This document shows, piece by piece, positions 38,014-39,427 of a stretch of DNA of 64,000 nt. Each line of letters starts with the position of its first letter. The first letter of the stretch is position 1. The notes under the pieces are model-generated. The model was not told the origin of the DNA. It saw only the letters and a list, made by a program, of their open reading frames with translations, and did no database searches. This DNA comes from Pseudoalteromonas luteoviolacea (GTDB lineage Bacteria > Pseudomonadota > Gammaproteobacteria > Enterobacterales > Alteromonadaceae): the NCBI RefSeq assembly GCF_018100925.1, contig NZ_JAGJEH010000003.1, positions 248,001-312,000 of the forward strand, in the 5' to 3' direction. The translations under genes were made by a program, and so were the position numbers.

Positions 38014-38814
38014 ATGAACGATTTACTCAGTACAGATTTGACGATATTACTCGTCGAACCTTCAGTTACCCAAAGAAAGATTATTGCCCATGAGCTCCAA
38101 CAAGAAGGCGTGCAAAATATTGATTTTGCTGACTCTGTTAGCACAGCAATTGACGCATTGAACCAAAACCTCCCCGACTTGATCATCTCTACCCTGTACC
38201 TTGCTGACGGAGATGCACTTAAATTACTCGACCACGTGCACACACATTTTAGCGATCATCAGCTGCCCTTTATGTTGGTCTCAAGTGAAACTCGCAGACA
38301 GCAGCTTGAGGCATACAAACAATCTGGAGTGGTTGCAATTCTACCTAAGCCATTTACAAAGGAGCATTTAGGCAAAGCAATCAATGCAACGCTTGATTTG
38401 TTGTCGCCACAGGAACTTGAGCTTGAGCTATATGATATTCAAGATTTGAGAATTTTGGTGGTAGATGACTCCAAGTTGGCCCGCAACCACATACAACGGG
38501 TTTTGCAAAACTTGGGCGCAACACGGATCAGCGAAGCAGAGAATGGCGCGCAGGCATTAGAGGTATTACAGCAGAGCATGTTCGACCTCATAGTAACAGA
38601 CTACAATATGCCAGAAGTAAATGGACAAGAACTTACTGAAGCCATTCGCCGCTCAGACGAGCATGCCCACGTTCCTGTACTCATGGTGACTTCTGAAGCA
38701 AACGAGACACACCTTGCCAACGTCGCACAATCAGGTGTCAATGCTATGTGTGATAAACCATTTGAGCCAAATATCGTTAAACAGCTCATTTATCAAATGC
38801 TTGAACAAAATTAA
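38014..38814 (+). CDS. Tandem-receiver response regulator, first receiver degenerate
   Basis: A 266-residue protein made of two receiver domains and nothing else. The first (about 8-130) has Glu15 in place of the acidic pair and Thr60 where the phosphoacceptor Asp should be (DLIISTLYLADG), although the conserved Lys-Pro of the last loop is kept. The second (about 145-266) is canonical, with Asp151/Asp152 and phosphoacceptor Asp196 in DLIVTDYNMPEVNG. No output domain is present, so it resembles a CheY-like relay or phosphosink. The ATG at 38014 has AGG seven bases upstream. No kinase is encoded nearby. Confidence 0.82.
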   Translation: MNDLLSTDLTILLVEPSVTQRKIIAHELQQEGVQNIDFADSVSTAIDALNQNLPDLIISTLYLADGDALKLLDHVHTHFSDHQLPFMLVSSETRRQQLEAYKQSGVVAILPKPFTKEHLGKAINATLDLLSPQELELELYDIQDLRILVVDDSKLARNHIQRVLQNLGATRISEAENGAQALEVLQQSMFDLIVTDYNMPEVNGQELTEAIRRSDEHAHVPVLMVTSEANETHLANVAQSGVNAMCDKPFEPNIVKQLIYQMLEQN

Positions 38815-38843
38815 CTATATATTAGTTATTTTAACCACTTCCC

Positions 38844-38876
38844 TTGGCCAAAAACACCAAATTGATTTTTGGCCAA
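38844..38876. repeat. Inverted repeat TTGGCCAAAAA-N11-TTTTTGGCCAA
   Basis: Two exact 11-base arms with an 11-base spacer lie 29 bases after the tandem-receiver stop. The centre is about 99 bases upstream of the transcription start predicted from the sigma54-like element, the usual distance for an enhancer-type activator site. It could also be a T-less terminator of the upstream gene. Confidence 0.65.
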
Positions 38877-38933
38877 TTAGATCACAAATTTAAAATCACA
38901 ATAAAATCAAACGCTTAAAATAAAGATTCAAGC

Positions 38934-38949
38934 TGGCACAACCTTTGTA
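38934..38949 (+). promoter_or_regulatory. Sigma54-like promoter of the small-gene cluster
   Basis: TGGCAC, a 5-base spacer, then TTGTA. The spacing between the -24 GG and the -12 element is exact. The match to TGGCAC-N5-TTGCA is complete except for T in place of the -12 C. It lies about 39 bases before the ATG of the 81-residue exported protein. Confidence 0.5.
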
Positions 38950-38987
38950 ATAGTTATTACGTCTAAACAATCAAAGGGAACAACGCC

Positions 38988-39233
38988 ATGAACTTATTTA
39001 CTAAATTACTAACTACCAGCCTTTTCATTGGAATATCTGCGTCAGCAAATGCGAACACCATGACCAGTGATATGCTAAGTGATGTACAAAATCGAGTGAG
39101 TGAGAATATTCAATCGAGCCTAGTTGAGTTAAAGCTTAATACTAAAAAGGCACTAGTAGATAGTTTCATCCGTACAAATAAGGACATTAAAACCACTCAA
39201 CCTGAAACTGAGCAGGTTCAAAAGGAAAACTAA
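38988..39233 (+). CDS. Small exported protein of unknown function
   Basis: An 81-residue protein. A signal peptide (FTKLLTTSLFIGISASANA) is followed by a helical charged mature part of about 58 residues, rich in Ser, Asn, Lys and Glu with no Cys. AAAGGGA lies upstream at a suitable distance from the ATG. I do not recognise a family. Its stop is separated by one base from the start of a 40-residue membrane-protein gene, so the two are probably coupled. The upstream region holds a sigma54-like promoter and a long inverted repeat. Confidence 0.6.
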   Translation: MNLFTKLLTTSLFIGISASANANTMTSDMLSDVQNRVSENIQSSLVELKLNTKKALVDSFIRTNKDIKTTQPETEQVQKEN

Positions 39234-39234
39234 T

Positions 39235-39357
39235 ATGTTTAGTGAAGTAACATTGATTAGCTTATTAGCGATGCCAGTAGTGAGCTTATTGCTGGCTTAT
39301 TTTTCAATAGAAACCATTAAGATGATCAGTCATAAATGGTTTGCGGAGAGAACTTGA
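39235..39357 (+). CDS. Very small membrane protein (40 residues)
   Basis: A 40-residue protein with a single predicted membrane helix (about 6-28: TLISLLAMPVVSLLLAYF) and a basic C-terminal tail. AAGGA lies eight bases before the ATG, an excellent ribosome-binding site, and the ATG is one base after the upstream stop. The stop overlaps a further possible ATG (TGATG) that opens a 16-residue frame running through the terminator (39357-39407), also with GGAG eight bases upstream. No homologue is recognised from memory. Confidence 0.55.
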   Translation: MFSEVTLISLLAMPVVSLLLAYFSIETIKMISHKWFAERT

Positions 39358-39380
39358 TGAAGTGGTTATTGACGAAGACA

Positions 39381-39405
39381 AAAAACCCGCACAAGGCGGG
39401 TTTTT
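39381..39405. terminator. Terminator between small-gene cluster and peroxiredoxin
   Basis: A 10-bp perfect stem (39381-39390 with 39396-39405) with ACAAG loop, A-rich at the left and T-rich at the right. It can stop both convergent transcripts. Confidence 0.9.
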
Positions 39406-39427
39406 AAACGATGGACGCAAATGCTAA

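Follow-up and report, generated by a model that had tools for sequence, protein, structure and literature searches.

In a 64,000-nucleotide stretch of a Pseudoalteromonas luteoviolacea genome (hereafter the window), two small genes, P1 and P2, form what is, as judged from the sequence and its relatives, a real two-gene operon behind a conserved sigma54 promoter. The operon is very probably a further target of PspF, the activator of the phage-shock (Psp) response to envelope stress, acting on the sigma54 promoter, and a role of the two proteins as partners of the Psp system is reasonably likely. Both proteins appear to represent undescribed families within a known regulon, and their relatives point to a second Psp branch across the bacterial family.

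A conserved operon of two small proteins

The initial annotation of this DNA had described a sigma54-like promoter about 99 bases past the centre of an inverted repeat, followed by an 81-residue exported frame and, one base later, a 40-residue membrane frame. All of these elements are present (Table 1), and the promoter and both frames proved to be conserved. With up to three mismatches allowed, 47 of the 99 genus genomes contained the promoter string, compared with 0 of 99 for a reversed control, and the adjoining start region is unusually well conserved along with it. The predicted first base of the transcript follows from the position of TGGCAC-N5-TTGTA and therefore lies about 99 bases from the repeat's centre. 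The P2 frame is preceded by AAAAGGAAAAC and begins one base past the P1 stop, while prxC (convergent) and fadR lie 3' of the pair. At one locus (L102, genome G079), the operon and its promoter occur in two copies with identical P1 and P2, the promoters lying at 2163 and 3585 (0-based), 1,422 bp apart.

Table 1. Features of the P1-P2 locus, in window coordinates.
Feature	Position	Strand	Observation
REC-REC (double receiver-domain) gene	38014..38814	+	Pfam Response_reg, 7.5e-41, 2 stretches
Predicted PspF site TTAGTTATTTTAACCAC	38822..38838		112 bp before TGGCAC; rank 5 of 63,984
Predicted PspF site TTGGCCAAAAACACCAA	38844..38860		90 bp before TGGCAC; rank 4 of 63,984
33-bp inverted repeat TTGGCCAAAAA-N11-TTTTTGGCCAA	38844..38876		lineage-specific; arms co-vary
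Sigma54 promoter TGGCAC-AACCT-TTGTA	38934..38949	+	47/99 genus genomes at <=3 mismatches, control 0
Conserved start region ATAGTTATTACGTCTAA / TAATAGTTATTRCGWCTAA	38950..38966	+	spans predicted first base, ~38960
P1, 81-aa predicted exported helical protein	38988..39233	+	relatives, dN/dS, structure model
P2, 40-aa single-span membrane protein	39235..39357	+	conservation, dN/dS
Third frame, 16 codons	39357..39407	+	unsupported as gene; enters hairpin
Terminator-like hairpin AAAAAACCCGCACAAGGCGGGTTTTT, between operon and convergent prxC	39379..39404		sequence

The closest named relatives of P1 come from four Pseudoalteromonas luteoviolacea genomes (79-94% identity). Comparison of the window with L177 gave dN/dS values of 0.097/0.934 for P1 and 0.032/0.318 for P2; against the four named relatives the ratio was 0.10-0.15 for P1 and 0.09-0.11 for P2, and among these four themselves it reached up to 0.30. 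By this codon-level measure, both frames are under purifying selection. Conservation in related genomes, which the initial annotation had named as a check on the small frames, was thus found for both, with dN well below dS.

A P2 profile matched 58 of 60 genus genomes, 54 strongly (E<=1e-9) and four weakly (G003, G015, G016, G033), with no match in G001 and G002. The four weak matches and a P2-like frame spotted by eye in G002 all adjoin pspA2, which leaves G001 as the sole genome of the 60 in which no P2 was found. P2 consists of one hydrophobic helix, in which M1, P14, V15, S17 and Y22 are invariant among 19 genus sequences; across 23 sequences, Pro14 never varies and Val15 hardly does. P1 carries an N-terminal hydrophobic stretch ending in ANA, and its structure model, built on an alignment of 5 sequences only, has an N-terminal helix (residues 3-20) and a long helix (residues 26-70), with a mean pLDDT of 83-92 at residues 31-60 and of 71.5 overall.

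Protein-level conservation of P1 and P2 extends across genera. A family-wide search at E<=0.1 gave matches in 62 of 118 genomes, many of them weak. Order-wide, the first profile matched 5 of 295 genomes at E<=0.01, the genuine ones being the own genome, G073 and G270; class-wide, matches at the same threshold came from 6 of 321 genomes, including the own genome and G123, and the remaining four were short or interrupted. Outside the own family, these order and class searches yielded only doubtful P1-P2 matches. P1 and P2 have no NCBIfam match and none above cut-off in Pfam, in agreement with the initial annotation, which could not place them in a family; the cluster as a whole can nevertheless be placed, through its psp linkage in other genera. 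A search of one open-access library found no description of P1-P2.

The third, 16-residue frame that had been counted with the cluster is present, but is unsupported as a gene and could be one at most in the closest relatives. Its second half coincides with the hairpin AAAAAACCCGCACAAGGCGGGTTTTT, which is common to the convergent prxC. Among 71 distinct P1-P2 pairs, a start codon at -7 to +2 of the P2 stop was seen in 25, yet only 5 of the 71, all of the window's close kind, have a 15-16-codon frame ending in KNPHKAGF, and the other 20 of the 25 show a different reading. The first half of the KNPHKAGF frames differs in 3 of the 5, and the shared ending is dictated by the hairpin sequence.

Predicted PspF sites upstream of the promoter

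Because the pspA gene at locus L101 has a similar upstream site, we tested PspF as the regulator of P1-P2. A 17-bp dyad, [GT]T[AG]GT-N8-CTA[AT], was present in all 31 pspA1 promoters read (12 distinct sequences). From these we built a symmetrised matrix of 11 distinct pspA1-promoter sites from other genomes, leaving out the own genome's site, and scanned the window with it. The positions 38844 and 38822 scored 13.54 and 13.52, respectively, and the two predicted sites lie 22 bp apart; the first doubles as the left part of the 33-bp inverted repeat, and the repeat's right arm (AATTGATTTTTGGCCAA) scored -9 as a third PspF site. Three other window positions (16134, 30063 and 61652) outrank this pair, with PspF-matrix scores of 13.6-14.9.

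A matrix of all 12 pspA1 sites was then used for P1-promoter counts, in which promoters with identical P1 were merged. The best site scored at least 8 in 44 of 56 P1 promoters, compared with 7.4% of shuffles (preserving single-base composition only) and 2.2% of window stretches, and at least 13 in 28 of 56, compared with 0.6% and 1.0%, respectively. The remaining 12 of the 56 had no site of at least 8 (e.g., L010, 2.1; L105, 4.0). Among 76 P1-type promoters, a set that includes the P1' promoters of pspA2 operons, sites cluster near -132, -111 and -90 from TGGCAC, and 20 carry paired sites 20-22 bp apart. The same 12-site matrix was applied to E. coli, where TTAGTGTAATTCGCTAA, upstream of pspA, topped the 2,785 positions around that gene (score 20.7, next 7.8) and GTAGTCAAATTCACCAC, upstream of pspG, topped a 5-kb stretch (score 13.6, next 7.8).

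A 16-bp pattern was designed to include both the window site at 38822..38838 and the pspA1 sites; across the 6.5-Mb own genome it had four exact matches, namely P1-P2 (at that window site), pspA1 and two positions within coding genes. With one mismatch allowed, it matched 74 positions versus 55 for the reversed control, so that single weak sites mean little. Inspection of 30 of the 74 matches found a sigma54-like promoter 20-190 bp away at P1-P2 and pspA1, and a third among these 30 had a poorer promoter (TGGCAC-N5-TTT).

These observations argue for an enhancer upstream of the promoter, as the initial annotation had proposed, although it is better described as the 17-bp dyads at 38822 and 38844 than as the inverted repeat. 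The cognate regulator, which that annotation had left to a genome search, can now be named as very probably PspF, by way of a matrix derived from the pspA promoters of other genomes. The PspF of the own genome passes model TIGR02974 (558.6 versus a cut-off of 443.55 bits) and falls under the cut-off of the narrower PspF model NF008622 (502.1 versus 529 bits); its gene adjoins pspA-pspB-pspC.

The inverted repeat and the REC-REC gene

The 11-N11-11 inverted repeat exists as first described. It is specific to a lineage and coincides in part with one PspF site. An inverted repeat at this place occurred in 27 of the 30 P1-type promoters that have a REC-REC gene upstream (one of the 27, at L008, being a weak repeat of another form) and in only 1 of 46 without, and hence is not the conserved element. 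The REC-REC gene itself, not found upstream of P1 for 46 of the 76 promoters examined, adjoins the P1-P2 operon in some members of the genus and stands outside it. The repeat may have enlarged the enhancer in one lineage, or it may be a hairpin that ends the REC-REC transcript.

That it is a separate hairpin of the latter kind, overlapping one PspF site and compatible with PspF control, has a substantial chance, somewhat short of even. Its arms change together (TGGCCAA, TGGTTAA, TGGTGAA and TGGTCAA, each with its mirror), it is almost confined to positions after a REC-REC gene, and downstream of 6 of the 15 REC-REC relatives at other loci there is an inverted repeat of a different kind (arms >=8). 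However, no T-run follows the repeat, so that it was rejected as an intrinsic terminator, and none of these 15 relatives has a downstream repeat of the TGG..CCA form, which could thus equally be a lineage-specific form of the enhancer.

The tie between repeat and REC-REC gene could also suggest that sigma54 control is exerted by another activator with a PspF-like site, for instance one tied to REC-REC, the closeness to psp genes being incidental. We consider this improbable: the REC-REC protein has no DNA-binding family over cut-off except a FleQ receiver model, the many promoters that lack the gene upstream speak against it, and both E. coli sites, that of pspA and that of pspG, fit the same matrix.

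Linkage to dusA and a second psp operon in relatives

A pspA gene over cut-off was found in all 46 genomes searched, and a second match (pspA2) in 43 of them. The pspA2 gene adjoins dusA, as checked with family models in L137 and L164 and by eye elsewhere. In six loci (L138-L143; genomes G015, G016, G033, G003, G270 and G002), the interval from dusA to pspA2 contains a sigma54-like promoter and P2, with P2 accompanied by P1 or another small exported frame. In more distant genera, the order is P1'-pspA2-P2'-pspC2 (L152, L153, L164, L171 and L174); L169 has P1' before and P2' after pspA2, with pspC2 not listed. DusA of L164 and PspA2 of L164 and L171 pass curated cut-offs. PspC scores of 43-52 bits, under the 104-bit full-length cut-off, were obtained for the products of pspC2 in L152, L164 and L171.

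We further analyzed 20 loci from the family-wide matches, in which pspA lies on the same strand in 16 (not a random figure, since most of these loci were picked among higher-scoring matches beyond the genus) and a sigma54-like promoter with a site of at least 8 stands upstream of P1/P2 in 14. For pspA2 promoters, the best site was at least 9 in all 17 loci with a promoter found, among 19 examined. At L157, L163, L164, L165, L167, L172 and L174, P1-P2 and the pspA2 operon are separated by a sulfurtransferase-like gene; the L164 copy matches a 3-mercaptopyruvate sulfurtransferase model at 201 bits, under its cut-off of 250, and the other loci were assigned by eye. The pspE gene of the E. coli psp operon encodes a thiosulfate sulfurtransferase.

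This genetic linkage to pspA and pspC is seen in relatives and is absent in the window's own genome, where P1-P2 lies on contig C23, unlinked to either pspA. Its pspA2, unlike that of the linked relatives, is on another contig (C72), and the PspA2 protein (L137, G000 C72) is strongly diverged, at 79 bits versus 310 for PspA1. A membrane protein of about 107 aa in the pspA2 operon resembles PspG by eye and was rejected as such, the own copy having no family match; the Pfam PspG model (PF09583) was over cut-off in 0 of 18 genomes.

Comparison with known Psp systems

In published accounts, PspF is restrained by PspA and set free by membrane stress, after which it activates the sigma54 promoters of pspA and pspG (PMC9239133, PMC3709507); its binding to both promoters in E. 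coli is described in PMC3709507. The E. coli regulon is given as small, comprising pspABCDE and pspG (PMC2763126), and PMC9239133 states that the PspF of the Psp response had earlier been described only in Enterobacteriaceae. A Shewanella paper lists pspF and pspABC by annotation (PMC2262068), and the words Alteromon- and Shewanella are absent from the main text of two comparative Psp papers.

One of the closest known counterparts of P1-P2 is E. coli pspG, a PspF/sigma54 target apart from pspABC, as P1-P2 very probably is too. The pspG site (GTAGTCAAATTCACCAC) resembles sites in P1 promoters, for example CTGGTCAAATTCACCAC, and the pspG product is a small inner-membrane protein, as is predicted for P2. 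In E. coli, pspG sits directly 3' of dusA, which together with the arrangement in this family suggests that a PspF-driven unit beside dusA is common to both, with different proteins. In contrast to P1-P2, PspG has two predicted spans, according to PMC2763126, and no exported partner in its unit, and neither P1 nor P2 matches the PspG family. With pspABC, the operon shares the type of enhancer site and of promoter, but P1 and P2 match no PspA, PspB or PspC model; P2 was rejected as a PspB homologue (PF06667), with no PspB match and an hhalign probability of 1.2%. The pspA2-pspC2 operon beside dusA has the same kind of site, with P1/P2 homologues near or inside it.

Possible roles of P1 and P2

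On damage to the inner membrane, PspA would be expected to release PspF, which may then bind the two phased 17-bp sites (38822 and 38844) and make the sigma54-RNA polymerase transcribe P1 and P2. P1 would be exported as a small helical protein at the outer face of the inner membrane or in the periplasm, and P2 would insert into the inner membrane as one transmembrane helix. Both may act with PspA2 and PspC2 as membrane-protecting or signal-relaying partners, with P2 perhaps taking a PspB-like place; in Pseudoalteromonas, P1-P2 may instead act alone rather than serve the PspA2/PspC2 branch. More tentatively, one could envisage a Psp system with two branches across this family. P1 and P2 would replace PspB and PspG in it and serve PspA2/PspC2 as a module that senses or seals between periplasm and membrane, and in Pseudoalteromonas this module would have broken away and become independent; we regard this wider scheme as possible, with the odds against it.

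A small hydrophobic protein paired with a small exported helical one could also be toxin-like or pore-forming rather than protective, which is very unlikely given that strong matches are near-universal in the genus (54 of 60), dN/dS is low, homologues are embedded in psp operons and no family match exceeds its cut-off. That P1-P2 is untranslated and its conserved sequence a regulatory RNA, as the unusually conserved start region might hint, is hardly credible with dN far under dS in both frames and conservation at the protein level across genera.

As partners of the Psp system, P1 and P2 would gain a class of function, although they are too small for most annotation. To our knowledge, it is not settled how the Psp system detects damage from the outer face of the inner membrane. 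An exported partner driven by PspF across a bacterial family would be a concrete candidate for a periplasmic Psp component, and the PspF site with its dusA-adjacent place spans E. coli and this family. If this holds true, a periplasmic Psp partner of the P1 kind would be new.
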